49,065 nt of DNA from a virus: positions 1-49,065 of IMG/VR virus record IMGVR_UViG_3300042563_000952, one strand, 5' to 3'. Within the stretch, counting starts at the first letter, position 1. Each line of letters begins with the position of its first letter. Shown here piece after piece: positions 7,135 through 44,696 of the stretch. Under the pieces are notes generated by a model. The model was not told where the DNA came from. It ran no database searches and worked only from the letters and a program-made list of their open reading frames with translations. A program made the position numbers and the translations under genes.

Positions 7135-7222
7135 TGGCGGAGCATGTAGGAATCGAACCTACTCACCACTTGCGCAGTGACAGATTAGCAATCTGTTGCC
7201 TTAACCGGTCGGCCAATGCTCC
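7135..7222 (-). tRNA. tRNA-Ser(GCT)
   Basis: Class II tRNA with long variable arm, acceptor GGAGCAT/ATGCTCC, discriminator G, anticodon loop TTGCTAA, encoded CCA. Confidence 0.94.
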
Positions 7223-7223
7223 A

Positions 7224-7364
7224 TTATCTTGTTGCTTTACGTAGTAATTTATACCAGTAATATCTCACACCACGCCAAGTCGGCGTAAAATTCCAATTGA
7301 CAGCAAACCCCACTTTGTTAGGAATATTTCGGTATGCCTGGTCTATAATTTCTTTGGGTATCAT
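7224..7364 (-). CDS. Small basic protein, 46 aa
   Basis: MIPKEIIDQAYRNIPNKVGF, then an aromatic/basic tail with RYYWYKLLRK. It fills the space between tRNA-Val and tRNA-Ser; the stop falls one base before tRNA-Ser. Only a weak purine-rich ribosome site. Possibly coding; no family recognised. Confidence 0.5.
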   Translation of the reverse strand: MIPKEIIDQAYRNIPNKVGFAVNWNFTPTWRGVRYYWYKLLRKATR

Positions 7365-7383
7365 ACAGTCTTCTTTCTACTAG

Positions 7384-7458
7384 TGGTACCTGGTCACGGT
7401 TTCGAACCGCGGACCCTCTCGGTGTAAACGAGACGCTCTACCCCTGAGCTAACCAGGC
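7384..7458 (-). tRNA. tRNA-Val(TAC)
   Basis: Acceptor GCCTGGT/ACCAGGT, anticodon arm TCTCG-TTTACAC-CGAGA, T-loop TTCGAAA, encoded ACCA. Confidence 0.94.
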
Positions 7459-7468
7459 AAAATTCTTT

Positions 7469-7555
7469 ACCATATTGAAACACACTAACTACCACGGTAT
7501 GTACTAAAGTTCAATGAACCGTTACAACCCTATCTTTAATATGTTTCAATATGGT
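7469..7555 (-). repeat. Spacer module A: long inverted repeat between tRNAs
   Basis: 87 bases. The ends form a 14-bp perfect stem (ACCATATTGAAACA with its complement), extended by near pairs. The outer bases of one arm are the ACCA end of tRNA-Leu(TAG). The inside holds ACGGT...ACCGT enclosing TTCA/TGAA. Same length and arm pattern as modules B and C. Confidence 0.75.
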
Positions 7556-7635
7556 GCGCAAGGAGAGACTCGAACTCTCAATCCTTTCGGCAATGGCTTC
7601 TAAGACCATCGTGTATACCATTCCACCACTTGCGC
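7552..7635 (-). tRNA. tRNA-Leu(TAG)
   Basis: Class II tRNA, acceptor GCGCAAG/CTTGCGC, anticodon loop CTTAGAA, discriminator A, encoded CCA. Confidence 0.94.
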
Positions 7636-7688
7636 AAAATCTTACTTTAAATTTTTAATGAACATTACTAATTGCTTAGTATGTAACT

Positions 7689-7717
7689 ATTATATAGTCA
7701 TTACGTTATCTTGTCAA
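7689..7717 (-). promoter_or_regulatory. Sigma-70-type promoter (TTGACA-17-TATAAT)
   Basis: TTGACA (7717-7712), 17 bases, TATAAT (7694-7689). About 45 nt later transcription meets tRNA-Leu(TAG), so it feeds the left part of the tRNA array. Confidence 0.87.
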
Positions 7718-7749
7718 CAGTTATTTTAAAATATTTTTTGGTGCCGTCC

Positions 7750-8313
7750 TTAGGATTGAATTTCATTTGTTATTAGATCCTCAAGTTTTGGATTACCATT
7801 AAATCTAATGCATACTGTTATTCTAGGATTATTAAAATCTACATTCACAATATTATGTGGGATTGAACTGTTTACTAATGTCCATTCATTCTTGCCTTCT
7901 AGTTCTGTAGCAAGACATACATCATCTTCTTTAAAATAATAAGCATCTGCTACTTTAGGAATAACATTTGATTTTGTATTATAAAAACACATCCTTGTCC
8001 CTTCAAACCCCACGAGAGGTAAGTTGAAGCTTGCATATCTCAATGTTGATTTACCATCAGCATGAATGGCCTGGGAATACGTGTGTTTAAATATTGAAAA
8101 ATATTCAATCGGTGGAAATTTTAGTTTACTAACTAGCAACGAACTAAGTTTTAATATTTCTAAATCTTTATAAAAATCTTTTTTAAAATACATCATATAT
8201 AAAGGACTAGACAATTGTTCAAAAATTTTATATTTTGGTATGAATTCTTTCAAAAAATAGTTAGTCCAATATACATTATCTATTTCTGGAAAGTGTTTAT
8301 AAAAGTTTTGCAT
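7750..8313 (-). CDS. Hypothetical AT-rich protein, possible Fe(II) oxygenase-like fold
   Basis: 187 aa. Pattern HTYSQAIHADGK near residue 92 (H-x-D), SIPHNIVNVDF near residue 152 and RITVCIRFNG give an H-x-D...H...R order like 2OG oxygenases and related cupins. No Shine-Dalgarno; a late-promoter-like TAATAAATA ends 5 nt before ATG. Function inferred only from the motif order. Confidence 0.65.
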   Translation of the reverse strand: MQNFYKHFPEIDNVYWTNYFLKEFIPKYKIFEQLSSPLYMMYFKKDFYKDLEILKLSSLLVSKLKFPPIEYFSIFKHTYSQAIHADGKSTLRYASFNLPLVGFEGTRMCFYNTKSNVIPKVADAYYFKEDDVCLATELEGKNEWTLVNSSIPHNIVNVDFNNPRITVCIRFNGNPKLEDLITNEIQS

Positions 8314-8318
8314 GTTGG

Positions 8319-8327
8319 TATTTATTA
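8319..8327 (-). promoter_or_regulatory. T4-late-like promoter motif TAATAAATA
   Basis: Minus-strand TAATAAATA ending 5 nt before the ATG at 8313. With T4 late spacing transcription would begin at or next to the start codon. Confidence 0.5.
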
Positions 8328-8358
8328 ATTATGTAGAGTTCTAAGAGTCCAACTTAGT

Positions 8359-8433
8359 TGGTGCAACCTCTAGGAATCGAACTCCTATTCGCACTTTGGA
8401 AGAGAGCTGTATTCTCTATTATACAAAGGCGGC
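8359..8433 (-). tRNA. tRNA-Gly(TCC), divergent second copy
   Basis: Body begins GCCGCCTTTGTATAATAG, anticodon loop CTTCCAA (TCC), T-loop TTCGATT, encoded CCA. The acceptor stem has a C-T mismatch, the anticodon stem a T-T mismatch, and the discriminator is A rather than the usual T. It may be decaying or have changed identity. Confidence 0.75.
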
Positions 8434-8437
8434 AATG

Positions 8438-9001
8438 TTATGCAATAATTGCTAAATTTTTATAACGTTTGAGACTTTTTTCTATCAGCGTCTGATGCCT
8501 TGCTGTATCAATAAATCCTCTAATATAGATAATCTTTCTGCCCGGATCATCCTTGAGCATGTGTAGCCCTGCTGTGGTATTTAAAAGATAACAACAAGGC
8601 ACAGATGGCAATTCTGCTAACTTAAACGTGCCTCCACTTTTAACATAAAGTACATCAGTGGACCCTTCTAGGACTAGACGATACCCTGCAGGTTCGTTAT
8701 CTAAAATATTAGTGTATTCTCCTTCTTCAAATTTCATATTTGGATATACATCGTAATGAGGTGACACAGCTTGTCTTTGCTCTTTATAATATACATTTGT
8801 TACTTTGCTTATAGGCAACTGATCTAGTACAGATTTTAAAGTATCATCAACTGTTTCAGTAATTCTAGAAGTATCCCAATACTGTTGATACTCTGCAGTT
8901 TTTATGTAGGTTAGGTTGTTGATGACGTTAATTGTAGACTGTATTTTTGATGTATCAATCTTTGGAATTTCAATATCAATTGGAAGGAATAATATGTTCA
9001 T
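8438..9001 (-). CDS. Putative 2OG-Fe(II) oxygenase-type phage protein
   Basis: 187 aa from MNILFLPIDIEIPKI. VSPHYDVYPN near residue 99 gives H-x-D, GGTFKLAELP follows, TTAGLHMLKDD supplies the distal His and GRKIIYIRGF the Arg. An ATG eight codons upstream (9025) is possible. I prefer 9001 because a TAATAAATA motif ends 4 nt before it. Substrate unknown. Confidence 0.7.
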   Translation of the reverse strand: MNILFLPIDIEIPKIDTSKIQSTINVINNLTYIKTAEYQQYWDTSRITETVDDTLKSVLDQLPISKVTNVYYKEQRQAVSPHYDVYPNMKFEEGEYTNILDNEPAGYRLVLEGSTDVLYVKSGGTFKLAELPSVPCCYLLNTTAGLHMLKDDPGRKIIYIRGFIDTARHQTLIEKSLKRYKNLAIIA

Positions 9002-9005
9002 ATAA

Positions 9006-9014
9006 TATTTATTA
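9006..9014 (-). promoter_or_regulatory. T4-late-like promoter motif TAATAAATA
   Basis: Minus-strand TAATAAATA, 4 nt before ATG 9001; predicts a leaderless transcript for the 8438-9001 gene. Confidence 0.5.
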
Positions 9015-9039
9015 AATTCCACCATTCTCGCATTTGTCT

Positions 9040-9115
9040 TGGTGCAACCTCCAGGAATCGAACCTGGTTCAACGGTTCTTCAAACCGCCGCTATGACCAC
9101 ATCAGCTAAAGTTGC
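9040..9115 (-). tRNA. tRNA-Phe(GAA)
   Basis: Acceptor GCAACTT/AGGTTGC, anticodon arm GCGGT-TTGAAGA-ACCGT, encoded ACCA. Confidence 0.93.
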
Positions 9116-9116
9116 A

Positions 9117-9521
9117 TTAATCCTTTATAGTAGTATCAACTACATCAACACTGACACTTTCGGAATAGTATCCATTGCTGGAACCATACCACCGAACAGT
9201 TACAAATCCCTTGCGTGTAGCAAACTTGTAAAATGTCCATGTGTAAGACTCGTCTCCTGTAGCTTCACCTTCATAGTCAGAAACTTCTTCAGCTTCAACT
9301 AGTGGTGCTCCCACAAGGTCATCGAGGTCACCACATATGTCTTCTATGTAAACACTTTCGCAACAATCTTGGTGATGTTGGAATCTTACATAGTTTGTCT
9401 TGGACAGATACAGTGTCAATACTGAGTCGTCTGCTTCTGCCTTGTACAATGATCGTCCTAGTAATTCTTCGAACTTACGAACAGATCCCTTTAATGTGTT
9501 TAATATTTTTACTTGTTCCAT
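9117..9521 (-). CDS. Conserved-type phage protein with DCCESVYIED motif
   Basis: 134 aa from MEQVKILNTLKGS. Signature FQHHQDCCESVYIEDICGD near residue 47, then an acidic linker and an aromatic C-terminal beta-rich part (TWTFYKFATRKGFVTVRWYG). I recall this type as widespread in phages with no known role. ATG lies 16 nt after the CCA of tRNA-His; the longer open frame crosses that tRNA. Confidence 0.8.
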   Translation of the reverse strand: MEQVKILNTLKGSVRKFEELLGRSLYKAEADDSVLTLYLSKTNYVRFQHHQDCCESVYIEDICGDLDDLVGAPLVEAEEVSDYEGEATGDESYTWTFYKFATRKGFVTVRWYGSSNGYYSESVSVDVVDTTIKD

Positions 9522-9537
9522 GATATTTCTACTTTGT

Positions 9538-9611
9538 TGGGTTGAACCGGGGAATCGAACCCTCTCTAACTGTTTCACAGACAGTTGTGCAGCCACTACA
9601 CTAGGAACAAC
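9538..9611 (-). tRNA. tRNA-His(GTG)
   Basis: Anticodon arm ACTGT-CTGTGAA-ACAGT. A genome-encoded G at -1 (9611) faces discriminator C, the histidine identity pair. The acceptor (TTGTTCC/GGTTCAA) has two adjacent T-T mismatches. Confidence 0.85.
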
Positions 9612-9617
9612 ATTGAT

Positions 9618-9785
9618 CTATGTTTTAATCTTCTCCAATGCATCTTTACGCATTAGAAATTTTCTATCTTGAATGGTCTTGCTGACCAACAGGTACTCAA
9701 TGCCGTCAATTACTTGTACAGCCTTGGGATCATTACAGACCACTCGCTCATTGTTGAATCTATTTTTAAATGTAATTGTTTTCAT
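9618..9785 (-). CDS. Small protein, 55 aa
   Basis: MKTITFKNRFNNERVVCNDP, then IDGIEYLLVSK and a basic C-terminal helix. AAAGGA lies 9 nt before ATG. It occupies the gap between tRNA-Arg(TCG) and tRNA-His. Small beta-rich phage protein, function unknown. Confidence 0.75.
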   Translation of the reverse strand: MKTITFKNRFNNERVVCNDPKAVQVIDGIEYLLVSKTIQDRKFLMRKDALEKIKT

Positions 9786-9801
9786 AGCATTTTCCTTTAT
9801 A

Positions 9802-9878
9802 TGGCCGGACCGGAGAGATTCGAACTCCCAACCTCAAGTTTCGAAGACTTGCTTTCTATCCAATTGAATTACGGTCCG
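9802..9878 (-). tRNA. tRNA-Arg(TCG)
   Basis: Acceptor CGGACCG/CGGTCCG, discriminator G, anticodon arm AAGT-CTTCGAA-ACTT, encoded CCA. Confidence 0.93.
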
Positions 9879-9885
9879 ATAAATT

Positions 9886-9959
9886 TGGCAGAGGGTAAAG
9901 GAATCGAACCTTTAATAGCGGAATCAAAATCCGCGGTTATACCATTTAACTAACCCCCA
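9886..9959 (-). tRNA. tRNA-Gln(TTG)
   Basis: Starts TGGGGGT, discriminator G as in bacterial tRNA-Gln, anticodon arm GCGGA-TTTTGAT-TCCGC. The first acceptor pair is open (T-T), in keeping with the weak 1-72 pair of tRNA-Gln. Confidence 0.93.
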
Positions 9960-9967
9960 ACAGAAAC

Positions 9968-10043
9968 TGGTCTCCCTACTAGGATTCGAACCTAGACCAC
10001 ACGGCCCCAAACCGCGGATGCAACCAGATAACACTTTAGAGAG
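9968..10043 (-). tRNA. tRNA-Pro(TGG), copy 2
   Basis: Acceptor CTCTCTA/TAGGGAG, anticodon arm CGCGG-TTTGGGG-CCGTG. Same anticodon as the copy at 4499-4575 but a different body and discriminator A, so not a recent duplicate. Confidence 0.88.
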
Positions 10044-10252
10044 ATAATTGAATTTGTAAGTAGTAGAGCCACTTTAATCTCTACCATTCACCCGATTGCA
10101 CTGGTCCGGACGGGAGGTGGTACATCACTTGGAATACTTGACATAGGTGCTCCGCTGCTTTTACGGGACTCGAACCCGCCCTACTTTTGCACTAGGTTGA
10201 CCTTCGAAGAATCTTCCTAGCGAGTCTTTCTCTTGCTGACACTTACAAAACT
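10044..10252 (-). ncRNA. Structured spacer with an orphan T-arm-like hairpin
   Basis: 209 bases without a gene. It holds a canonical T-arm GCGGG-TTCGAGT-CCCGT (about 10163-10179) but no convincing acceptor or anticodon arm. A long stem CTAGG...CCTAG sits upstream, and GTAGAG(10)CTCTAC downstream. It could be a decayed tRNA or part of a structured RNA. No CCA follows the T-arm. Confidence 0.4.
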
Positions 10253-10327
10253 TGGTGGTAACGGCTGGATTCGAACCAGCACCTTGCTCCGTATGAAGGA
10301 GGTGCACGACCATTATGCTACGTTACC
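10253..10327 (-). tRNA. tRNA with CAT anticodon (elongator Met or Ile2)
   Basis: Acceptor GGTAACG/CGTTACC is fully paired including G1-C72, so this is not an initiator. Loop TTCATAC gives CAT. It could be elongator Met or, if the C is lysidine-modified, Ile(AUA). ACCA encoded. Confidence 0.87.
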
Positions 10328-10412
10328 ATATAAAAACACACTCAAGTCCGCGGCTCGGAAGGCACTATACCCGCGATGATCTATGATCAGGCCTAATGTG
10401 TTTTTATATGGT
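10325..10412 (-). repeat. Spacer module B: long inverted repeat between tRNAs
   Basis: 88 bases. Arms match over about 15-17 bases (CCATATAAAAACACA and complement). One arm overlaps the 5' GGT of the CAT tRNA. Inside are two hairpins, TGATC(ATA)GATCA and CGCGG...CCGCG, giving a possible three-way junction. Confidence 0.75.
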
Positions 10413-10517
10413 GTCGCTACCCTCTAGCGGTCAGGCCTACTCTTGCGACTTCTCATCCTCCGGTCACGACATTGTGTATGACTAGTACACCTGTTTCGAT
10501 CACATCTTCTGATACTA
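10413..10517 (-). ncRNA. Non-coding spacer between modules B and C
   Basis: About 105 bases, no gene and no complete tRNA. Small stems such as GCTA...TAGC near 10418-10438 are visible, and the octamer GATGAGAA, shared with the 6935-7134 spacer and the tmRNA acceptor piece. Nothing else recognised. Confidence 0.3.
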
Positions 10518-10602
10518 ACCATAGAAAAACACACTAGTCGGAAACGACTTAGAGACCTACTCGCCCACAGTCACGAAGGCTTCTAATGTGTTTGTCTATG
10601 GT
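10518..10602 (-). repeat. Spacer module C: long inverted repeat between tRNAs
   Basis: 85 bases. Arms ACCATAGACAAACACA and complement pair over about 17 positions with one mismatch. One arm includes the ACCA end of tRNA-Lys(TTT). Internal hairpin AGTCG(4)CGACT plus GCC...GGC repeats the two-hairpin plan of module B. Confidence 0.75.
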
Positions 10603-10674
10603 AGGAGCACCGGGACTCGAACCCGGAACTGGCAGATTAAAAGTCTGCTGTGATAACCATTTCACTATACTCCC
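10599..10674 (-). tRNA. tRNA-Lys(TTT)
   Basis: Acceptor GGGAGTA/TGCTCCT, anticodon arm GCAGA-CTTTTAA-TCTGC, discriminator A, CCA encoded. Confidence 0.94.
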
Positions 10675-10677
10675 ATA

Positions 10678-10752
10678 TGGTCCACGCTCTGAGAATCGAA
10701 CTCAGTTAGTCCGGTTAAGAGCCGGGTACTTCGCCACTAAAGTTTAGCGTGG
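10678..10752 (-). tRNA. tRNA-Lys(CTT)
   Basis: Acceptor CCACGCT/AGCGTGG, anticodon loop CTCTTAA, encoded ACCA. Only TAT separates it from tRNA-Lys(TTT), giving the palindromic junction CCATATGG. Confidence 0.9.
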
Positions 10753-10855
10753 ATGGATCGTAAATATTTTCTTTTACGTGCCATCCAGGACCATACGGGG
10801 GTCTAGGATGACACTAGAGTTTACCTCGTTTCATGTCATTCTCCATTTTAAAAAT
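10753..10855 (-). ncRNA. Non-coding spacer with hairpins
   Basis: 103 bases, no gene. A stem GGATGG...CCATCC with an inner CGTAAA/TTTACG pair is visible beside tRNA-Lys(CTT). Otherwise nothing recognised. Confidence 0.3.
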
Positions 10856-10929
10856 TGGTTCCCAGAGCAAGAATCGAACTTGCGAAGACCGGTTATCAGC
10901 CGATTATTATACCATTTAATTATCCGGGA
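10856..10929 (-). tRNA. tRNA-Ile(GAT)
   Basis: Acceptor TCCCGGA/TCTGGGA, anticodon arm ATCGG-CTGATAA-CCGGT, discriminator A, CCA encoded. Confidence 0.92.
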
Positions 10930-10933
10930 AAAT

Positions 10934-11023
10934 TGGCGGAAGTAGTAGGATTCGAACCCACGGACCCTTTCGAGCCTTCAGTTTTCAAGACTGCTGCCTT
11001 AAGCCATGCTCAGCCATACTTCC
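10934..11023 (-). tRNA. tRNA-Ser(TGA)
   Basis: Class II with long variable arm, acceptor GGAAGTA/TACTTCC, discriminator G, anticodon loop CTTGAAA, CCA encoded. The 68 bases between it and the next tRNA hold no gene; I see nothing clear in them. Confidence 0.94.
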
Positions 11024-11091
11024 ATATTAGGTGCAGGGCTTCCACCTACTCCCACATCGCTTTAAAGTCTGCGTGTCCAAGACTGGTTGAT

Positions 11092-11168
11092 TGGTACCCC
11101 TGGGCAGATTCGAACCGCCATCCAGCAGATTTTAAGTCTACCCGCACTACCAATTAGCGTACAGGGGT
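11092..11168 (-). tRNA. tRNA with TAA anticodon on a class I body (Leu?)
   Basis: Acceptor ACCCCTG/CAGGGGT, anticodon arm GTAGA-CTTAAAA-TCTGC (anticodon TAA, codon UUA), T-arm GGCGG-TTCGAAT-CTGCC, discriminator A. The variable region is only five bases, whereas bacterial tRNA-Leu has a long variable arm. The anticodon arm resembles tRNA-Lys(TTT) with two changes. Charging identity is uncertain. Confidence 0.75.
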
Positions 11169-11172
11169 ATAT

Positions 11173-11250
11173 TGGAATAGGGAGTGGGATTCGAACCCAC
11201 GGGTTTACAGTTTTGCAGACTGTTGCATTGGGCCTCTCTGCCATCCCTAT
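11173..11250 (-). tRNA. tRNA-Cys(GCA)
   Basis: Acceptor ATAGGGA/TCCCTAT, discriminator T (Cys identity), anticodon arm CAGT-CTGCAAA-ACTG, CCA encoded. Confidence 0.93.
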
Positions 11251-11256
11251 ATGGTG

Positions 11257-11348
11257 TGGTACCAGCGGAGGGAATCAAACCCTCTCAAGAACGCTAATCT
11301 GGCGCTAAAAGTCTTATAAGGACTCTCTGACTGTCAAGTCTCGCTGGC
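11257..11348 (-). tRNA. Class II tRNA with TAT anticodon (Leu-like body)
   Basis: Acceptor GCCAGCG/CGCTGGT with ACCA, T-arm GAGGG-TTTGATT-CCCTC, and a 5-bp variable stem (AGCGC/GCGTT). This long-variable-arm body resembles tRNA-Leu. The anticodon arm GAGTC-CTTATAA-GACTT gives TAT, which reads the isoleucine codon AUA. Body and anticodon disagree. Confidence 0.72.
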
Positions 11349-11351
11349 ATA

Positions 11352-11425
11352 TGGAGCGGGATAGGAGAATCGAACTCCTGACTAAACCTTGGCAAGGTTT
11401 CGTTTGACCATTAAACTAATCCCGC
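11352..11425 (-). tRNA. tRNA-Gly(GCC)
   Basis: Acceptor GCGGGAT/ATCCCGC, discriminator T, anticodon arm AAACC-TTGCCAA-GGTTT, CCA encoded. Confidence 0.95.
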
Positions 11426-11432
11426 GGTATAT

Positions 11433-11507
11433 TGGTACACGATACGAGAATCGAACTCGTCTTTCCGCCTTGAAAGGGCAGCGTCCTAACCGATAGACGA
11501 ATCGTGC
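11433..11507 (-). tRNA. tRNA-Glu(TTC)
   Basis: Acceptor GCACGAT/ATCGTGT, anticodon arm CTGCC-CTTTCAA-GGCGG, ACCA encoded. Confidence 0.93.
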
Positions 11508-11515
11508 AAATTGTT

Positions 11516-11589
11516 TGGCGTACCTCCAGGGACTCGAACCCCGACGAACAGTTTTGGAGACTGTGATGCTGCCATTACATTAGAGATAC
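11516..11589 (-). tRNA. tRNA-Trp(CCA)
   Basis: Acceptor GTATCTC/GAGGTAC, discriminator G, anticodon arm CAGT-CTCCAAA-ACTG, CCA encoded. Confidence 0.93.
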
Positions 11590-11595
11590 ATTGTC

Positions 11596-11671
11596 TGGCT
11601 CCCCGAGTACGGATCGAACGTACGACATCTTCGTTAACAGCGAAGCGCAACTACCTCTGTGCTATCGGGGA
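11596..11671 (-). tRNA. tRNA-Asn(GTT)
   Basis: Acceptor TCCCCGA/TCGGGGA, discriminator G, anticodon arm CTTCG-CTGTTAA-CGAAG, CCA encoded. Confidence 0.95.
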
Positions 11672-11677
11672 ATAAAC

Positions 11678-11753
11678 TGGCGCCTCGTAGGGGAGTCGAA
11701 CCCCTGTATTCCGCTAGACAGGCGGATATAATAGACCGTTATATGAACGAGGC
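11678..11753 (-). tRNA. tRNA-Asp(GTC)
   Basis: Acceptor GCCTCGT/ACGAGGC, discriminator G, anticodon arm TCCGC-CTGTCTA-GCGGA, CCA encoded. Confidence 0.94.
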
Positions 11754-11759
11754 AAAACT

Positions 11760-11848
11760 TGGTGGAAGTGGTAGGATTCGAACCTACAATGTTTCTTATG
11801 TGGCGGATTTACAGTCCGTTGCCTTCAACCAATTCAGCGCACACTTCC
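11760..11848 (-). tRNA. tRNA-Tyr(GTA)
   Basis: Class II, acceptor GGAAGTG/CACTTCC, anticodon arm CGGA-CTGTAAA-TCCG, discriminator A, CCA encoded. First tRNA met by transcription from the promoters at 12493-12607. Confidence 0.94.
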
Positions 11849-19557: not shown

Positions 19558-21618
19558 TTACTTCGAGGTAGCTTTGTAGGTACCGTCCCAATCTTTTGGT
19601 AAATCTCTAGAGCGCATATCAGCTATACGCTCAATCCACAGTTCATAGTAGTGATCCATATTGCCGTCAAATTCACCAGTGAGTGTCTTGCATAATTCTA
19701 TAGCGTCATCCCACTTTTGCTGCTTATAATAGGTCAACATACCGTTATGCATATCACGGGCAGTGTTCCATTTAACTGCTACAGTTTCATCAGGCATGTA
19801 GAATACAGTAAAAATATTAACACCAATGGTCTTGCCCTTGACTGCAATACAGTCTAAAGGAATAGTAAAGTACTGATCGTTAACACGCTTCTCTGTGCTT
19901 TCACTGATAATGATTAGTTGTCCATAGTTCTTGGTTTGACTTTCTAGTCGTGCTGTTAAACTAACTGAGTCACCTAGTACATCATATCCAAATCGGTCTT
20001 TACTACCAATGTTACCGATTAGTGTAGGACCGGTGTTAATACCCAAACCCATACCTACACGTGGCTTTCCTTCTCGTTCAAGTTCGATGTTAAACAGTTC
20101 AACAGCATGAATCATTTCTAGTCCAGTGCGGACAGCAGCGTGAGCATGATCAGGATCTTGAAGCTCTTGGATCGGAGCACCATGAACGTGCAGACTAGCA
20201 TCACCAATGAACTTGATCAAGCATCCATTGTTGCGCAGTATAGGTTCAGCAATGGCAGTCATATAACGATTCATTGTTTGTGTAAATGCCACAACGTCAT
20301 CACCATAGGTTTCACCTAGGCCAGTAAAGTTGCGCATGTCACTCATGATGATGGTAAGGTCTTTCTTCTCTCCGCCTAGTTTAATAAAGCTAGGATCTTT
20401 TTGTAGGCGTTCAACAATTACAGGATTTACATAGCTGCCAAACTGTTTCTTAATCTGTGACTTTTGCAAGTACTCGCTTAAAAATTTGACACTATAAGCG
20501 TGAATGTATACCAGACTACAGCCAACAACAAACCAAGTGGCGTCCAATAGGATTCTGGAGTTTTCATATAGATAAGATATAGCGAAATGACTGCCGCCGA
20601 GAAAGACAACAACAGGAATAAAAGCATAGGTCCACCTTGATAAAAATAGTACTAGTAATCCAGCGGCCAGCAAGGCAATGATCTCAGCTTGGTCAGCCCA
20701 ACCTGGACGCTGTATGTTGCTCTGCGTCATCATAGTGCCAATGACTGCACCTTGTAGGTATTGTGGCCATACTTCACCTTTGGCTGTACTAACAGGGTTT
20801 ACCAGACCAGCAGCACTGAGTCCAACAATAACAATACCGCCGTCAAATGATTCAGGCAACTGCATGTAACTGTATTCTCTAGGCGTTGCTGACCAATCAA
20901 TCCAAACACGACCTTCGTTGTCCGTTGGTACTTTGCCAAACTTAGGAACACGCACAGCTTCTACACCCATGTCACCAATCTTGACTTGGAACTTGGGATC
21001 CTTGGCAGCCACACGCAGTGTCTCTAATGCTAGACTAGGATGTAGTTTTTCTTGACTTAGTATGACCATGGGCATACGACGAACAACACCGTCTATCTCT
21101 GGAAATGTATTAACAATACCAACACCTGCTGCTAGACTTTCTTGCGGCTCCACATTACTAATCAATCCTGGATACTCAACAACTAGTCCCTTAGGATCCA
21201 TGCCTATTACTTGTGCAGGTGTTCTATGAGTAATATTCTTTTGACGTTCACTTCCTAGTGCTGGTAATACCACAGGATACTTCTTAAGTGTTTCACCTAG
21301 TACGGCATCCTTGCCAAAACGATCTTTCTCTGGCATTAGCACGTTAAACACAACCAGTCCGGCATCACGTCTATAAATCTCTTTAATGATATCAGCATAC
21401 ATGTCTCTAGGGAAAGGAAACTGTCCTAGCTTGTCTAGAGTTGCTTCATCAATGTTGACTGTATAAACAGGAACATCGTTGGCAGGTTGACTAGTTACTA
21501 ATGTGTCAAAATAACGTAGTCTTACGCTTTCAATAAAACTAGGATCTACAAGACGGATGCCTAATACTAATGCTAGAGTGACCAATGCGGTCCAAGGGTT
21601 TAATAGTAGCTTTTTCAT
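19558..21618 (-). CDS. CHASE2-domain class III adenylate/guanylate cyclase
   Basis: 686 aa from MKKLLLNPWTALVTLALVLG. An N-terminal membrane anchor, an extracytoplasmic CHASE2 sensor (about 25-290), three membrane helices (about 310-385), then a class III cyclase domain (about 420-610). Metal-binding Asp in IMSDMRNFTG and KFIGDASLHVHG; the base-selecting Lys and Asp positions suggest ATP. In GDSVSLTARLES the usual transition-state Asn (VNxxAR) is Ser, so activity may be reduced. A late-type GATAAATA ends 5 nt before ATG. A cyclase in a phage is highly unusual. Confidence 0.9.
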   Translation of the reverse strand: MKKLLLNPWTALVTLALVLGIRLVDPSFIESVRLRYFDTLVTSQPANDVPVYTVNIDEATLDKLGQFPFPRDMYADIIKEIYRRDAGLVVFNVLMPEKDRFGKDAVLGETLKKYPVVLPALGSERQKNITHRTPAQVIGMDPKGLVVEYPGLISNVEPQESLAAGVGIVNTFPEIDGVVRRMPMVILSQEKLHPSLALETLRVAAKDPKFQVKIGDMGVEAVRVPKFGKVPTDNEGRVWIDWSATPREYSYMQLPESFDGGIVIVGLSAAGLVNPVSTAKGEVWPQYLQGAVIGTMMTQSNIQRPGWADQAEIIALLAAGLLVLFLSRWTYAFIPVVVFLGGSHFAISYLYENSRILLDATWFVVGCSLVYIHAYSVKFLSEYLQKSQIKKQFGSYVNPVIVERLQKDPSFIKLGGEKKDLTIIMSDMRNFTGLGETYGDDVVAFTQTMNRYMTAIAEPILRNNGCLIKFIGDASLHVHGAPIQELQDPDHAHAAVRTGLEMIHAVELFNIELEREGKPRVGMGLGINTGPTLIGNIGSKDRFGYDVLGDSVSLTARLESQTKNYGQLIIISESTEKRVNDQYFTIPLDCIAVKGKTIGVNIFTVFYMPDETVAVKWNTARDMHNGMLTYYKQQKWDDAIELCKTLTGEFDGNMDHYYELWIERIADMRSRDLPKDWDGTYKATSK

Positions 21619-21623
21619 AGTAA

Positions 21624-21631
21624 TATTTATC
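21624..21631 (-). promoter_or_regulatory. T4-late-like promoter motif GATAAATA (cyclase)
   Basis: Ends 5 nt before the cyclase ATG (21618). Predicts transcription from the start codon. Confidence 0.5.
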
Positions 21632-21635
21632 GCTA

Positions 21636-21738
21636 AATACCTTGGGGAGTAACTAGCCAACAGGTGTTGGTTTTATAGGTCGTCAACACGGTATACATAT
21701 ACCCGGTCTATAGACAAAGCGGTGAGACCATAACTTTA
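21636..21738 (+). ncRNA. yybP-ykoY (manganese) riboswitch upstream of terC
   Basis: The leader carries the family landmarks in order: CTTGGGGAGTAACTAGCC at 21641, GGTCGTCAACACGG at 21678, CCCGGTC at 21703 and AAAGCGGTGAGACCATAAC ending at 21735. In the known class two loops dock to bind Mn2+ and the output gene is often a TerC/YkoY membrane protein, as here. No terminator follows; the ribosome site AAGGAAG begins right after the aptamer, so control is probably translational. Confidence 0.85.
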
Positions 21739-23076: not shown

Positions 23077-24960
23077 CTATGGTCCCGTGCCTTGTGTTAC
23101 TGAAACACTACATCCAGATAATGTAGCACACTGTTGTGTAATATTAATGTTTTGTGCTGTGGTGCCTTGTTGTATTAGATTAACTGTGCTAGAGCCACCA
23201 GCATTGGTCAAGTTGATAGTGGCTTTGTGACTGCCTGCGTCCTTTTGACTGGCAGTAACATTGTGCCCGTTGCCTGTTAGGCTTAGATCAAAGTAACTGC
23301 CTGATCCTTGTTGTGTAACATCAAATACATTAGTATTACCGTTGACAACGCCAAAGAATGTTTTCTCACCGTTGCCCATTTGCTTCAGTGTTCCTTGATT
23401 GCTATTACCAGTGACATCAACATAGGCAAAGTGCCCACTTGCAGTTCCGCCGTCATTGCTTTGTTTTAGACTCAACGTGTTTGTGCTGCCGTTGATATTT
23501 AGACCCATATAGTGTCCACCACTCTCTTGTCCGTCTTGTAAGCCAGTTGTAGGATTACGTGCTTGCCATAAGGTAATGTTATTTGTGTTGCCTGTGACGC
23601 TGAATTCAAACAAGTTCTTACCCAGGGTATCACCTTGTTTGATGTTTAAGGTATTGTTGTCACCGTCTATGACAGCGTAGTCAGTGCCACCTAGGCCTGA
23701 GATCTTATTATAGTTGCCTGTTTGTTCAATGGTTATTGCATTACCGCTACTGCCAATCTTTTGATCAAGATATAAACTGTTGCCCAATGTAATGTTACTA
23801 ACACGACTCTTAGCAGAATTCTTCTGCGCTGTTTGATTTACAGTTATGTCGCTAGTAGAAGGCCAAGTAGGAGCACAGTCGGCGCAAACGCTGCCTGCTT
23901 GACCTGGATTAGCAGGAGTTCCGCCTGAACCAGTATCAGTACTAGTAACGCCATCATTTAAATCATAGTAGTAGGTAACTTCAGCAATTTGCATACTGTC
24001 GCAGTTTAACCCACAGAATTCCCCTGCTTTAGTTGTTGGAAACAATATGAAGTAGTAGATATAGGCAGTAGTATTGCCTGTCGCTATTTCGGGACTAGTC
24101 CAAAATCTCGACTCGCTTAAACTTAAACTATCTTGTTTAATCAGTGTCCAGTTGGCACCGTTATTACTACCATACAGTTTATAGCTAGTAGGATCACGGC
24201 CACTAAAATCATTAGCAGTTGTAATAGTAAATTTCTGAACCACTCGACCTTGACTTAGTTTGACAGTTACACCTGCATTCTTTTTGTCAAAATTTAGATA
24301 TTTGGTATTAACATTGCCGTCAAAGGCCTGTGTTGCACCTTCTCCAAACGGACTGTTATTGCTAGTGGGAAATATAGTGCTGATAACCACAGGTGTGCTA
24401 TTAGTTCTAATCAATTTCCAGTCAGCCGGGGCACTACTCGGTGTAGTTGTAGCAGTTTGTCCTGCGGTCAACGGTACAGTAGAATAGTTAGCGTTGGCAT
24501 AAGTGTTGGCCTGTGCTACTGTGGGGTTAAGTGTGCCAGTCCATGAAACACCGTTAGTGTTATTCATACCACTTGATCCACTGAATAACTGTCCTGTGTT
24601 ATTGTCACTGCCCACAAAGAAGAAATAGTCAGGACCCATGTTGACAATCTTACCGGTGCCAATAGTACCTGCTAGTGTGCCATTGCTATTGTAAACTTTA
24701 CCTTCGTAAGGGTAACTACCATTACCAGTTGCTGCAAATTGAACATATTGTCCTGCTTGCCAACTCCAGGTTCCGTTAAACCAAGGAATCTTATACATAG
24801 TACCCGGTTGTTTACTGTAGATTTGGCAGGTAGTAGTATTGAGACAGGCATTGACATTCCACTGACTGTCGGCAATTTGGCTTTGTCCAAACTTGATATC
24901 AGTTAGGTCAGCAAATGCATTAGAGCATACGAACAGTAAAGCTAATAATATCTTTTTCAT
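23077..24960 (-). CDS. Large secreted protein: discoidin-like domain plus curlin repeats
   Basis: 627 aa with signal peptide (MKKILLALLFVCSNAFA). Residues about 190-335 look like an F5/8 type C (discoidin) domain: AFDGNVNTKYLNF, SYKLYGSNNGANWTLI, then the closing strand. Residues about 385-620 are curlin-type repeats (IGSSGNAITIEQTGNYNKI and others with N-x-x-x-QxG spacing). A four-Cys C-terminus is present. Likely an amyloid-forming surface protein with a binding module, exported through CsgG. Confidence 0.85.
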   Translation of the reverse strand: MKKILLALLFVCSNAFADLTDIKFGQSQIADSQWNVNACLNTTTCQIYSKQPGTMYKIPWFNGTWSWQAGQYVQFAATGNGSYPYEGKVYNSNGTLAGTIGTGKIVNMGPDYFFFVGSDNNTGQLFSGSSGMNNTNGVSWTGTLNPTVAQANTYANANYSTVPLTAGQTATTTPSSAPADWKLIRTNSTPVVISTIFPTSNNSPFGEGATQAFDGNVNTKYLNFDKKNAGVTVKLSQGRVVQKFTITTANDFSGRDPTSYKLYGSNNGANWTLIKQDSLSLSESRFWTSPEIATGNTTAYIYYFILFPTTKAGEFCGLNCDSMQIAEVTYYYDLNDGVTSTDTGSGGTPANPGQAGSVCADCAPTWPSTSDITVNQTAQKNSAKSRVSNITLGNSLYLDQKIGSSGNAITIEQTGNYNKISGLGGTDYAVIDGDNNTLNIKQGDTLGKNLFEFSVTGNTNNITLWQARNPTTGLQDGQESGGHYMGLNINGSTNTLSLKQSNDGGTASGHFAYVDVTGNSNQGTLKQMGNGEKTFFGVVNGNTNVFDVTQQGSGSYFDLSLTGNGHNVTASQKDAGSHKATINLTNAGGSSTVNLIQQGTTAQNINITQQCATLSGCSVSVTQGTGP

Positions 24961-26135
24961 CTAAAGTTCTGATTGATAACAATCTGTCCCACGGCTTTAC
25001 CACTGCTGAAGTTCCAACTGTTGGTCTGCATGTCCTGTGTAACAATCACCTGCACTTTGGTATCTAAAGGCATAACAACATTAGCATAGTTGCGACTGTT
25101 AGGGCTTAGGCTTTCAAACATCCAACCTATTTGTTGTGTTTCGCTTTTATCTTTAAACAATTTCTTAACGTAGGGATTTTCAGTTTCGCTTACTGCGGCC
25201 ACTTCAGTGACTAAGGCATCTTTGTTAGCGGCAGTATCTAATCCTACCTTAGTAGCAGTGTCTAAATTCTCATCGCCTTCATTGGCACTACGTCCTTGCT
25301 TATAAGACTTGTTGCTTCCACCTTTTTCACCTTTACTAGCCACTTGTTGTTTTTCGCCATCTTTAGCATCATCTTTGTCATCTTTGTCTTTGTCGTCTTT
25401 TTTGCCGTCTTTCTTCGCATCGCCTGTCTTTTCAGCAGCAGCACGAGCAGCAGCGATCACGCTGACTCCAGTAGTAGTTCTTGGAGGATTAACCATTAGG
25501 TTGTTGCCAATGGCCATGCCGTTGAGAGCAACAATAACAGCAGGACTAGGAATACCATTTAATGTTTCAACTAAGGTAGCTTGATAAGGACGATTAAGTT
25601 TAACTATGCCTGCCGGTGTCTCTACATCAATAGCGCCACTGCCGCAGGTAAGTCCTTTTAAGTTTACGTTTTGTTCTATTTCACAGGTTGGCATCAACAT
25701 GATCATACTAGCGCCTGTTTCACTAACAGCCATGACAAAGTCTGTGCCACGAACAGCAATGGCCGCAGTAGGTGTGTTGATTTTTACATTCTTGGGGTCT
25801 TTGGCAATACTGCCTGATACATAGCGCACAGTACCTGCGGCAGCTTTAAGTCCTAGTTTTCCGGCACCGCTTTTAGGATCATATACAAAATCGTCAATAA
25901 TAAGGCTACTCGACTCAGTAACAGTAACGTTCGTATCGTCTTTAAAAACGATCTTGACTTTTCCATTCTTAGTTTCAATCTTGTCATTGGTTTTGATTTC
26001 TGTGCCTTTGACAATTTGAATTGTATCTTTACCACGCTTGATAATAGCAGTACCGGACGATTCAGTAACCGATCCGATATCTGCCCATGCCGACACGGCT
26101 GTGATCAAGCCTATGATAAGAGCAGCAACTCTCAT
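24957..26135 (-). CDS. FecR-domain secreted protein
   Basis: 392 aa with signal peptide (MRVAALIIGLITAVSAWA). Residues 25-145 form a FecR domain (GTEIKTNDKIETKNGKVKIV, then TAAIAVRGTDFVMAVSETG). A Lys/Asp-rich disordered linker (about 245-275) and a small C-terminal domain follow. FecR-domain proteins act in the periplasm or at the surface, sometimes with CHASE2 cyclases. Starts overlap (ATGA) with the curlin-repeat gene, so part of the curli operon. Confidence 0.85.
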   Translation of the reverse strand: MRVAALIIGLITAVSAWADIGSVTESSGTAIIKRGKDTIQIVKGTEIKTNDKIETKNGKVKIVFKDDTNVTVTESSSLIIDDFVYDPKSGAGKLGLKAAAGTVRYVSGSIAKDPKNVKINTPTAAIAVRGTDFVMAVSETGASMIMLMPTCEIEQNVNLKGLTCGSGAIDVETPAGIVKLNRPYQATLVETLNGIPSPAVIVALNGMAIGNNLMVNPPRTTTGVSVIAAARAAAEKTGDAKKDGKKDDKDKDDKDDAKDGEKQQVASKGEKGGSNKSYKQGRSANEGDENLDTATKVGLDTAANKDALVTEVAAVSETENPYVKKLFKDKSETQQIGWMFESLSPNSRNYANVVMPLDTKVQVIVTQDMQTNSWNFSSGKAVGQIVINQNFR

Positions 26136-26961: not shown

Positions 26962-27900
26962 TTACTTCCAGAACTGGATTCGTGTCCAGATACTCTTCTC
27001 TTTGCTTCCTTCAACACTTTTTCCGCTATCGGACTGCTGTGGTGAGGATGCAGTTTTGGCTGCGTCTTTGGTCTTGGTTTGTGCTTGAACCAACTCATTG
27101 GACTTCTCCTTGAATTGCCACAGGCCACCACGCTCTCCCTTTTTAATCAACTCAATAACCGCTGTTTCGATTGCTGAACGTAGGGCATAGTTACCTGGCT
27201 CGTTAAATGTTTGGCTTGAATCAAATTCAAATGCCTGTGTTGCTTGGTTGAAAAACTTCAACGCAGTGGCACCGTCGGCGGTGCTGAGCAAGTTCTTTTC
27301 CACTGTAACAGTGGTTAGTACTTCTCCAGTTTGAACACTGACCAAACGTAGGCTGATCACAACCACGTCTTGAGTATAGGCGGTAGATGTTCCAATACCT
27401 AACCAACGAGCACCTGTGCCGCCTGTTAGTGTATTGCTGTTATAATCAATAATGCCACCTTCTAGAATAACACCAGCCATTTGCAATGGTGGTAACGGTT
27501 TGGCATTAGCGCCTTCGTAGATCTCACGTGTCTGTTTGATCATCTGACGCTCTTTTAACAAGTTGTCCAAGCCAACACGCTCAACAACTGTGAACCATTG
27601 ACGATTACCAACTTCTTGTAAACTCTTCATTAGGTATGCTTCAGCACCCTGGGTGACTGCTGTTGAAAACAAGCTGAGTGTTGAACTTGGCTTTCGCTGT
27701 CCTGTTAGGTCTTTGAAACCATACACTGCCACTGTCACTGCCGGACCTGCTGGTGCAGGAACATTGGCAAAACTCTTGTTGATTGTGTCTGTAACTGTAG
27801 CTTCTTCTTTGATTTGTGTACTGCCCCATGGACGTACGGTTGAACATCCAGCTAGGGCTACTACGGCTAATGTGATTAAGGATAATTTAATTGCTTTCAT
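26962..27900 (-). CDS. csgG: Curli secretion channel CsgG
   Basis: 312 aa. Lipoprotein signal with lipobox LAGC (Cys about residue 19), then the CsgG domain: PAVTVAVYGFKDLTGQRKP, WFTVVERVGLDNLLKERQMI, AGVILEGGIIDYNSNT and the transmembrane hairpin region GARWLGIGTST. CsgG forms the nine-subunit outer-membrane pore. The C-terminal 50 residues are a polar extension beyond the usual length. Between csgF and a curlin gene. Confidence 0.93.
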   Translation of the reverse strand: MKAIKLSLITLAVVALAGCSTVRPWGSTQIKEEATVTDTINKSFANVPAPAGPAVTVAVYGFKDLTGQRKPSSTLSLFSTAVTQGAEAYLMKSLQEVGNRQWFTVVERVGLDNLLKERQMIKQTREIYEGANAKPLPPLQMAGVILEGGIIDYNSNTLTGGTGARWLGIGTSTAYTQDVVVISLRLVSVQTGEVLTTVTVEKNLLSTADGATALKFFNQATQAFEFDSSQTFNEPGNYALRSAIETAVIELIKKGERGGLWQFKEKSNELVQAQTKTKDAAKTASSPQQSDSGKSVEGSKEKSIWTRIQFWK

Positions 27901-31195: not shown

Positions 31196-33097
31196 TTAGC
31201 TAAACTTAGTTTCAGTAAACGTAGCGTCTACCACATTGTCATCTGCTTTGGCTTCTGGTTGAGGCGCCTGAGCTGCCTGTTCCTTGGCCTGCTTTTTATC
31301 CAATAATGTTTTCATTGCCGGATAAACCTTGTTGAGTTCTTCAGTGATCTTTTCAGGGTCTGTGCCTTTGGTAGCTTCTTCTACTGCTTTGATCACTGTT
31401 TCTAACTCAGTGATTTCTGTTTCAGAAAGTTCTGAACGGAACTCTTCTAGATCTTTACGTACTTCGTGCATCTGTGCTTCAGCACCATTACGTGTTTCAA
31501 TCAGTGTACGTGCTTTCTTATCTGCTTCTGCATTGACTTCAGCATCTTGAACCATACGCTCGATTTCTTCTTTGCTCAATCCACTATCTGATTTAATAGT
31601 GATTTTGTTTTCTTTGCCGGTGTTTTTGTCTTTGGCGCTGACGTGCATGATACCGTTGGCGTCAATGTCAAAACTCACTTCAATCTGAGGTTGTCCTCTG
31701 CGTCCTGGTGCAATACCTTCTAGGTTAAACTCGCCTAGTAACTTGTTATGTTGTACGAGTTCGCGTTCACCTTGAAACGCTTTGATGGTCACAGCAGGCT
31801 GGTTGTCTTCTGCTGTAGAGAATGTTTGACTAGCTTTAGTTGGGATAGTTGTATTCTTTTGCACCAGCTTGGTCATAATGCCACCCATGGTCTCAATGCC
31901 TAGACTCAACGGTGTAACATCCAACAACAAAACGTCATTGCGATCACCACCTAGAACAGCACCTTGAATGGCGGCGCCTGCGGCCACAGCTTCGTCGGGG
32001 TTAACATCTTTACGGGGTGCTTTGCCAAACAGTTGCTCAACAGCTTCTTGTACTTTAGGCATACGTGTTTGACCACCAACAAGAATAACTTCGTCGATGT
32101 CAGTGGCGGTAATGCCTGCATCTTTCATAGCTGTGCGGCAAGGTGCTAGACTACGTTCGATTAGATCAGCTACAAGACTTTCTAGTTTTGCACGGGTGAT
32201 CTTTACCACTAGATGTTTAGGACCACTAGCATCAGCTGTAACGTATGGAAGATTGACTTCTGTTTGTGCAGAACTCGATAATTCAATCTTGGCTTTTTCA
32301 GCAGCATCTTTTAAACGCTGTAGGGCAAGCATATCTTTCTTGAGATCGATTCCGGAATCTTTCTTGAATTCATCAACTAGGAATTCCATAATGCGTTGGT
32401 CAAAATCTTCACCACCTAGAAAGGTGTCACCATTGGTGCTTAGTACTTCGATTTGTTTGTCGCCTTCCACGTTCGCGATCTCAATGATCGATACGTCGAA
32501 AGTACCGCCACCAAGATCATAAACAGCAATCTTCCTGTCAGCTTTATCAGACTTATCAACGCCATAACTAAGAGCTGCCGCAGTAGGCTCGTTAATAATA
32601 CGCAGTACCTCCAAGCCGGCAATCTGTCCAGCATCCTTGGTAGCTTGTCTTTGGCTGTCGTTAAAGTACGCAGGAACTGTGATAACTGCTTGAGTAACTT
32701 CATGACCTAAATAATCCTCCGCTGTCTTTTTCATTTTACGCAGAACTTCTGCTGAAATCTGCGGAGGAGCAAGACGTTGTTCTCCTGCCTTGACCCAAGC
32801 ATCACCATTACCGTTTTGGATAATTTCATAAGGCATCAGGTCGATGTCCTTTTGAACTGCATCCTCAGTGAATTTACGACCAATCAAACGCTTGGCAGCA
32901 TAGATGGTGTTTTTGGGATTTGTTACTGCCTGGCGTTTTGCGCTGGCACCAACTAGAATTTCATTGTTGGTGTAGGCAACCACGCTGGGTGTAGTTCTAG
33001 CACCTTCTGAATTCTCAATAACTTTGGGAATTCCATTTTCGACGATAGCCACGCAAGAATTCGTGGTGCCGAGGTCAATACCGATGATCTTAGACAT
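31196..33097 (-). CDS. dnaK: Chaperone DnaK (Hsp70), full length
   Basis: 633 aa, full cellular length. ATPase domain signatures [13 protein letters not shown] (4-16), [15 protein letters not shown] (about 195) and VGGQTRMP (about 340); the linker [13 protein letters not shown]; a substrate-binding domain and lid; C-terminal [11 protein letters not shown], near the cellular tail. Needs DnaJ and GrpE, not seen here, so likely uses host partners. Strong AAGGAG site. Confidence 0.97.
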
Positions 33098-43993: not shown

Positions 43994-44010
43994 GTACAAA
44001 ACAAAAAGAA

Positions 44011-44028
44011 AACCCGCCGAAGCGGGTT
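44011..44028 (-). terminator. Terminator of the tmRNA gene
   Basis: AACCCGC-TTCG-GCGGGTT followed by TTCTTTTTG on the minus strand. Confidence 0.92.
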
Positions 44029-44029
44029 C

Positions 44030-44209
44030 CGAGTTTCTGTTACGAGGTATGTCTTACCCTAAGCTGAGTTTAGGCAGCTAATGCGAACTTTGAGTCGTTT
44101 GCGGTTACTTTTTTGTGTCTTCGACCGGGAGACCCCAATCCTAACGGCTTCTACATTGCCGAGCTGTCCACTCTGTTACTCTTTGCCCAATCGATCCTGT
44201 GTCAGGCCC
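44030..44209 (-). ncRNA. ssrA: Permuted tmRNA, coding piece (5' half)
   Basis: Minus strand. Begins GGGCCTGACACAGGATCGAT, the tmRNA 5' acceptor strand and D-like loop. A tag frame at 44102-44070 reads A-N-D-S-K-F-A-L-A-A-stop, preceded by AAAAAAGTAACC as in proteobacterial tmRNA. GGGCCTG pairs with CAGGTCC of the acceptor piece, giving a 7-bp stem whose third pair is G-T, the alanine identity element. The 3' end is ahead of the terminator at 44011-44028; approximate. Confidence 0.88.
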
Positions 44210-44310
44210 ATCAGAAAAACACTTATGTCTTGTTAAACCTTTACCTGGTGCCCAACTAAATCTATTAAAACAACTTGGGCACAATGCGGTGTACTTCATA
44301 AATATCCTTT
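44210..44310 (-). ncRNA. Intervening loop of permuted tmRNA
   Basis: 101 bases between the CCA of the acceptor piece and the 5' end of the coding piece. They hold a strong hairpin GTGCCCAA-19-TTGGGCAC. A short open frame (MKYTALCPSCFNRF...) crosses it but runs into the coding piece, so it is treated as chance. Expected to be removed on processing. Confidence 0.75.
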
Positions 44311-44385
44311 TGGTGGACCTGGCGGGCACTGCCCCCGCGTCTTGAACTTATTTCTCATCGCTTCATACAGCAATAACTTATATTT
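44311..44385 (-). ncRNA. ssrA: Permuted tmRNA, acceptor piece (3' half)
   Basis: Ends AAGACGCGGG, then GCCCGCCAGGTCCACCA: the tmRNA 3' end with T-stem GCGGG/CCCGC, acceptor strand CAGGTCC, discriminator A and CCA. The T-loop is GGCAGTG, not the usual TTCRA. GTTCAA pairs with TTGGGC of the coding piece (start of helix P2). The 5' end, near the stop of the upstream gene (44388), is approximate. Confidence 0.85.
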
Positions 44386-44387
44386 AA

Positions 44388-44696
44388 CTACATTTTAACA
44401 GTTAAGTCAATGTCTTCTTGTTGCTTTTGGACTTCTTTCATAGGACGAATAGGTTCTAACCAGGAATCTGGAATGTAGGCCTTTGGAGTATCTCCGTACA
44501 TATTACTCAATCCAAATTCTGTGGCTATCCACCAAAAGTGATCTGTAATAGCAGCCTTGCAGGCAATTCCCTTAAACTGAAATTCCTCACCTTGCGTAAA
44601 ATGTCCCACATACTCATCCACCAACACAGTTTTGCCTATGTTGGTAGGCCGTATGCTCATGATAATTTTGGCAAGATCGCCTTGTTCACATTTCAT
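44388..44696 (-). CDS. Conserved-type phage protein, 102 aa
   Basis: Beta-rich protein with GDLAKIIMSIRPTNIGKTVL near the start and AYIPDSWLEPIRP near residue 74. This end motif is familiar from phage and prophage proteins of unknown role. Overlaps the next gene upstream by 11 nt. Confidence 0.75.
   Translation of the reverse strand: MKCEQGDLAKIIMSIRPTNIGKTVLVDEYVGHFTQGEEFQFKGIACKAAITDHFWWIATEFGLSNMYGDTPKAYIPDSWLEPIRPMKEVQKQQEDIDLTVKM

Follow-up and report, generated by a model that had tools for sequence, protein, structure and literature searches.

The DNA analysed here is a stretch of 49,065 nucleotides (IMG/VR record IMGVR_UViG_3300042563_000952, positions 1 to 49,065), referred to below as the window; the record is viral and encodes a match to a head maturation protease. 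On its minus strand lies a tmRNA gene of the permuted kind, in which the acceptor half stands upstream of the coding half and an intervening sequence (IVS) separates the two (Table 1). Two Rfam models recognize the gene above their gathering thresholds: RF04321 (tmRNA_permuted) matches over its full length at 44372-44070(-), with 102.1 bits and an E-value of 6.9e-19 against a gathering score of 47, and RF01849 (alpha_tmRNA) matches at 44414-44025(-), with 72.6 bits against 50. A first-pass annotation had proposed a phage-encoded two-piece tmRNA at this place and had named permuted Rfam models as the check; these matches bear it out and assign the gene to the alphaproteobacterial type. The order of the halves on the minus strand, the 101-nt IVS between them, the 7-bp acceptor stem GGGCCTG/CAGGTCC with its G3-U70 pair, the CCA and the tag ANDSKFALAA can likewise be read directly from the sequence as described there, and a terminator scan finds the terminator named there. 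The tag frame ends in a hydrophobic C-terminus followed by a stop, as a permuted tmRNA requires. On these sequence grounds, 44025-44414(-) is confirmed as a permuted tmRNA gene of alphaproteobacterial type on a phage contig.

Table 1. Features of the permuted tmRNA locus, in order of transcription
Feature	Position	Strand	Basis or remark
-35-like TTGACT of the tmRNA promoter	44405..44410	(-)	by register only
-10-like TTAAAT	44382..44387	(-)	by register; ends 71 nt upstream of CCA end
Acceptor half: T-arm, CAGGTCC, A73, CCA	44311..44372	(-)	RF04321 match
IVS, 101 nt, expected to be excised from the precursor	44210..44310	(-)	read from sequence
IVS terminal stem, 5' strand (holds SD and AUG)	44297..44309	(-)	13 contiguous pairs, MFE fold
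Shine-Dalgarno (SD) AGGA, 5 nt before ATG	44305..44308	(-)	read from sequence
IVS ORF, ATG to TAG, 52 aa, CxxC-x14-HxC	44141..44299	(-)	30 codons inside IVS, remainder in coding half
IVS terminal stem, 3' strand	44215..44227	(-)	pairing, MFE fold, shared register
GGGCCTG, 5' strand of the acceptor stem; RNase P cut predicted directly before	44203..44209	(-)	pairs 7/7 with CAGGTCC; cut inferred
tmRNA coding half	44025..44209	(-)	RF01849; 3' limit approximate
Tag frame ANDSKFALAA and stop TAA	44070..44102	(-)	read from sequence
Intrinsic terminator	44009..44030	(-)	terminator scan

One might suspect a decayed, functionless copy of a host tmRNA. ARAGORN missed a tmRNA gene at 44025-44414, and two-piece genes can be captured from hosts. 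Such a relic is nonetheless extremely improbable, given that both Rfam models match, that tag, acceptor pairs and terminator are intact, and that 230 nt of the coding half are identical in 7 other loci. Moreover, the exact 26-nt acceptor arm occurs in 0 contigs of a bacterial and archaeal collection of 84,980 species, outside of which records very near the window may fall. A looser form of the arm retrieves at least 118 loci from the same collection, mostly from Alphaproteobacteria going by record title, and blastn of the locus against phage records returned no relatives. The first-pass annotation had pointed to a second ssrA gene as a sign of decay; none was found within the window, the whole record being a 49-kb fragment. 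It had also called the T-loop GGCAGTG unusual. The sequence was read correctly, but the RF01849 consensus has GGGGGCgGUACCC at the same place, and the alpha T-loop of the window fits the consensus T-loop GGCgGUA, so an odd T-loop is ruled out as a mark of decay. All told, the window shares gene order, acceptor pairing, alpha T-loop, tag and terminator with the permuted tmRNAs of RF04321 and RF01849.

As a discovery, the two-piece phage tmRNA had been anticipated. Melnitz, a cultured myophage of the Methylophilales, has one, and the paper on it puts the number of two-piece tmRNAs among 18,146 phage genomes at 53, of which 50 are aquatic (PMC9004378). The novelty seen in the first-pass annotation does not stand, and a phage permuted tmRNA was dropped as the main story, being already published and also common (at least 119 viral contigs). 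The interesting part of the locus is the IVS and not the tmRNA itself.

The IVS had been described as a spacer with an 8-bp hairpin. That hairpin, GTGCCCAA/TTGGGCAC, is present. The main structure, however, is a 13-bp stem in which the ends of the IVS pair with each other, and the supposed spacer also holds an SD, an ATG (44299) and an ORF. The IVS contains AAAGGATATTTATG and a frame MKYTALCPSCFNRFSWAPGKGLTRHKCFSD..., with SD and start within 32 nt of the CCA. The frame is open through the IVS and stops 69 nt past its end; it lacks the in-IVS stop seen in 59 of 80 unique ORFs, a stop that membership of the class does not require.

The class emerged from four scans of viral contigs. Scan 1 used the 26-nt acceptor-arm pattern, was unselected for SD and returned at least 119 contigs; scans 2-4 select for an SD, not for openness of the frame. 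Scans 1, 2 and 4 gave at least 119 rows each and are no census, and prevalence is drawn from scan 1 alone because the others were SD-selected. A regular expression found a complete tmRNA in 111 of the 119 scan-1 loci, 8 being dropped on account of contig ends or another D-arm; two loci outside the expression (L437 and L157) were added by hand. Together with the window, scan 1 provides 70 unique IVSs among the matches listed, 63 of them of at least 60 nt.

Several measures indicate that many of these IVSs are coding. SD and start codon lie in the first 32 nt of 24 of the 70 unique scan-1 IVSs among the matches listed, and all 24 are open throughout, where dinucleotide shuffles lead one to expect 2.5 (sd 1.3). 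Counted by copies, again among the scan-1 matches listed, an IVS ORF of at least 18 codons is present in 37 of 112 tmRNAs, the window counted. When all scans are pooled, 76 of 84 unique SD-bearing viral IVSs of at least 60 nt among the matches listed are open against 8.2 expected, the exceptions being L204, L359, L390, L409, L414, L417, L418 and L422. The 80 unique ORFs from all scans, among the matches listed, fall by blastp into 41 clusters, 15 of them with more than one member. In 14 of these 15 families dN/dS lies between 0.09 and 0.31; the L056/L069 family has 1.40 on 7 differences. Chance ORFs are ruled out by the shuffles and dN/dS as an explanation of the class, though chance is still a rival for the window alone. 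RF04321 scored above gathering in 11 of 11 related IVS-ORF loci tried.

The stop codons of these ORFs occupy few positions. In 46 of the 80 exactly 1 nt separates the stop from the mature 5' end predicted for the coding half (position -1); in 13 it falls 12-14 nt before that end, in 11 it lies 13 nt past it and in 10 further on, so that 21 of 80 stop, like the window ORF, past the IVS end. Four ORFs (L372, L375, L057 and L076) count as trivial or doubtful, the first two of them belonging to the 46; a zinc-finger-like ORF in L004 was left uncounted, having no SD by the rule applied.

What the encoded proteins might do is hinted at in few cases. One family is DUF2061 (Pfam E 3.5e-20), while the other 9 of 10 IVS proteins tried had no Pfam match above cut-off and PHROGs returned nothing convincing for 10. 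The commonest family comprises 15 unique sequences of 62 aa, with four cysteines invariant in 9 aligned sequences. A free-standing homolog, 59% identical, is annotated as gene 85 of Melnitz, directly upstream of the tmRNA; it ends ...IAS, and the 15 IVS copies all end ...SL. For the 122-aa IVS protein of L053, assignment as a GNAT was set aside as a lead only: the model has a pLDDT of 63.5 and the best Foldseek E-value is 0.057, despite many GNAT acetyltransferases among the matches.

Bacterial permuted tmRNAs have short IVSs and no enclosed gene, whereas viral IVSs reach 382 nt and often contain an ORF, of up to 123 codons among the matches listed. The 106 bacterial tmRNAs among the matches listed, mostly alphaproteobacterial going by title, have IVSs of 4-139 nt (median 30), and no enclosed gene was seen in these or in three long IVSs examined in addition. 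Just 5 of the 106 reach 60 nt, and the sole SD-start among them is a trivially open short frame. Under a looser rule, an SD-like site together with a frame of 18 codons or longer turns up in 10 of the 106; all 10 frames stop 37-100 nt past the IVS, and therefore nothing is enclosed, 9 of them belonging to IVSs of 5-32 nt. Among five long bacterial IVS loci in the matches listed, three were readable and none had an SD-start near the CCA; the remaining two, L445 and L446, did not fit the tmRNA expression. A sample of 289 genomes from the class to which genome G029 belongs yielded a tmRNA match above cut-off in 263. Phage-encoded SmpB was sought and rejected: no match was found in any of 30 viral records, some of which are fragments, and the phage would therefore rely on host SmpB.

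The terminal stem is a property of viral IVSs at large. Across 67 unique scan-1 IVSs among the matches listed, the two ends of an IVS pair over 10.6 contiguous bp, against 6.9 when each end is matched with those of other IVSs. One register, in which position i from the start pairs with position -(4+i) from the end, outdoes every other in 113 of the 128 unique viral IVSs among the matches listed; the window IVS follows it with 13 pairs covering SD and AUG. Pair-type changes are compensatory at nearly every stem position from 1 to 12. The register leaves ACCA opposite a 4-nt stretch, mostly UGAU or UAAU, that contains the stop codon. The window precursor has a computed folding energy of -56.4 kcal/mol, whereas shuffled sequences average -42.7 (z -3.3).

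In coding IVSs the stem takes in both ends of the gene: SD bases are paired, often through G-U, and the last codons are also buried. Indeed, 45 of the 46 ORFs that stop at -1 end in Leu or Phe. IVSs that start with TAA have Leu as the last residue in 32 of 35 cases and those that start with AAA have Phe in 8 of 8, an association of last codon with first IVS bases that gives a Fisher p of 9e-6 over sequences and 0.004 by family. The C-terminal Leu or Phe would be there because the first IVS bases pair with the last codon. Such tight pairing of SD and start could mean that there is little translation.

The ORF in the window would specify a zinc-knuckle-like peptide of about 30 residues with a variable C-terminal extension, since the frame is still open where RNase P is predicted to cut. 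The peptide has 0 matches in Pfam and PHROGs, and by tblastn no phage record encodes a match. The window IVS is identical in 9 other viral loci. A cassette scan whose pattern fixed only the CCA, SD and start codon returned 27 contigs, one of which breaks off within the ORF; adding the window brings the complete sequences to 27, representing 12 versions. All 12 have an IVS of 101 nt, with 0 indels and 0 stops within it, and the frame beyond the IVS end varies among them. Replacements are concentrated in codons 9, 12, 15 and 17-19, and the window and L157 ORFs differ by 2 nonsynonymous and 3 synonymous changes.

Whether this particular frame is a gene, or is open by chance in a structured spacer, even granting that the IVS genes of other phages are genuine, can be weighed from the same 12 versions. 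The spacer reading draws on the small size of the frame (just 30 codons in the IVS), on the fact that 0 of 12 versions stop before the RNase P site, and on the internal hairpin, which, as read from the variants, survives by way of G-U changes. Outside the motif codons, moreover, pN/pS is 0.57 (0.062/0.110), which indicates weak constraint. Over all 30 codons it falls to 0.37, however, and not one of the 12 versions has lost C7, C10, H25 or C27, although within the ORF the retrieval pattern demanded the start codon alone and none of these residues; both this and the lack of indels and stops count against a spacer. We consider a chance frame unlikely, and cassette conservation is moderate evidence that the window ORF in particular is translated.

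Both halves of the tmRNA appear to be served by one promoter. Promoters with at least 10 of 12 consensus matches lie upstream of 43 of 132 tmRNAs among the matches listed (3.5% of shuffles), and in 33 of these 43 the distance from the end of the -10 to that of the CCA is 71-75 nt; no promoter was found inside the acceptor half in the 132 tmRNAs scanned. The window pair, TTGACT-17-TTAAAT, stands in this register with 9 of 12 consensus matches. It is weak, and absent from the promoter-scan output; the second base of its -10 breaks the scan rule. We infer that one transcript spans both halves, starting about 65 nt before the CCA and stopping at the terminator.

There is also evidence that the contents of the IVS move independently of the RNA around them. 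Between the window and L438, L437 and L157, identity is 93-96% in the IVS and just 65-75% in the coding half (300 nt, gaps left out). Conversely, L010, L021, L018 and L065 contain four different IVS genes, with 97-100% identity in their acceptor halves and 82-91% in their coding halves. On a rough tree of 133 tmRNAs from which the IVS had been removed, the coding or noncoding state changes at least 28 times, at least 14 of the changes being forced by starred branches, and at the same time none of 500 shuffles of the label reaches the clustering observed. L007 has, at about 4890-4690(-), a decayed tmRNA copy with a damaged acceptor arm and D-region and an intact IVS ORF; the copy precedes a sound tmRNA whose own IVS is noncoding. 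L052 has the same nested pattern, the DNA itself having been read for L007.

Taken together, and judged from sequence comparison, these observations quite probably define a widespread class of phage genes in which a permuted tmRNA houses a small protein gene in its IVS, the pre-tmRNA being both mRNA and tmRNA precursor and the IVS an exchangeable pocket. Ribosomes would bind the SD just behind the CCA while the transcript is nascent or unfolded, and the IVS gene would be translated. Pairing of the IVS ends over 12-13 bp, beside the acceptor stem and across a 4x4 loop of ACCA and UGAU, would then hide SD and start. RNase P and the 3' tRNA-processing enzymes would cut at GGGCCTG and CCA, in competition with translation, and release the IVS, and the two pieces would join as an alanine-charged tmRNA working with the SmpB of the host. 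A gene in such a pocket could be swapped between tmRNAs with the mature RNA unharmed.

Alternatively, the IVS might be a harmless landing site, its genes real and translated, with a stem that serves processing alone and has no regulatory link to translation. The turnover of IVS contents seen on the tree agrees with that, as does the presence of the same stem in noncoding IVSs; the building of SD and last codons into the stem of coding IVSs does not, nor does the convergence of unrelated proteins on C-termini of -SL or -SF. A neutral pocket is possible, though on balance we lean against it. A further reading is a dual-use switch, in which pre-tmRNA is first translated as the IVS mRNA and then folded and cut; in the window, and in others of the 21 of 80 that stop past the IVS, cutting would produce a nonstop IVS message whose leftover ribosomes would be tagged and cleared by the resulting tmRNA. 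We offer this proposal tentatively, as rather unlikely. If true, self-tagging would link the supply of tmRNA to the level of a phage peptide. The arfA gene of E. coli is said to have a nonstop mRNA and a product repressed through tmRNA; the hypothetical nonstop end in the window would differ in coming from RNase P cutting of the tmRNA precursor itself.

Homing offers another account of the exchange, with the IVS ORFs as selfish mobile genes aimed at the tmRNA gene. The same IVS in diverged tmRNAs, and both gain and loss, would fit, and group I introns with homing endonuclease genes, including one form of tmRNA with such an intron (PMC11915505, accessible text), likewise have a protein gene in a part of the RNA that is removed. 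Here, however, removal would be the work of tRNA-processing enzymes; no intron appears in the Rfam results for the window and 11 loci, and no nuclease family was found among the 10 IVS proteins searched in Pfam and the 10 in PHROGs. The ORFs, at no more than 123 codons and in 41 clusters among the matches listed, are ill suited to the idea, and recombination in near-identical flanks would suffice for exchange. Homing genes are accordingly a very unlikely explanation next to that of an exchangeable pocket.

The exchangeable pocket has partial precedents. The ssrA of Melnitz resembles that of the window in being a two-piece tmRNA with an SD-bearing IVS ORF, MFKWLSKTRLVVITRDY..., that likewise continues beyond the RNase P site; it differs in having, upstream of the tmRNA, a free-standing homolog of an IVS gene found in another group of phages. 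The Melnitz IVS ORF is unannotated, lying under the SsrA feature, and is unmentioned in the accessible portion of PMC9004378; annotation can thus hide such ORFs. A second gene in an IVS, as here, is described in the accessible portion of the tmRNA database paper (PMC11915505), where a tRNA gene in one permuted tmRNA IVS is called unique and a repeat is noted in another; that is an RNA gene in one nominally archaeal case, unlike the many protein genes of phages found here, and protein genes in IVSs are not mentioned in that portion. No description of protein genes in tmRNA IVSs was found in the literature searched, preprints, subscription papers and supplements lying beyond its scope.

If the IVS genes are translated, many phages house complete protein genes in a segment that their ribosome-rescue RNA discards, and these make up a set of unannotated small phage proteins. 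They may also account for the unusual size of certain phage tmRNA genes. An IVS-bearing pre-tmRNA would, in addition, be a natural test of translation and tRNA-type processing competing on one RNA.

The tags of these tmRNAs vary as well. In L003, L008, L023, L119 and L195 they end in ...AANA or ...AVNA in place of ...LAA, which may alter protease recognition. Very long tags of 24-29 residues occur in L147, L376 and L157 (for example ANDNASNVFSFVDFSNARKYVNEDFALAA), that of L157 having 28 residues by hand translation. Directly after the Melnitz tmRNA, Rfam places a glutamine riboswitch (L436, 2107-2155), as the accessible text of PMC9004378 also reports.

Elsewhere in the window, ARAGORN finds 29 tRNA genes at 2247-11848(-), covering all 20 amino acids. 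A full-length DnaK/HSP70 of 633 aa (31196-33097(-), Pfam E 3e-254) was used to place the phage and tells little of the host; relatives also occur on uncultured phage records of 484-735 kb. A fusion of a CHASE2 sensor with a class III nucleotide cyclase domain is encoded at 19558-21660(-), and a FecR-domain protein at 24957-26135. At 26962-27900(-) is a CsgG curli-pore protein (Pfam E 4.5e-51), a protein that has reportedly been seen in Melnitz and in pelagimyophages.
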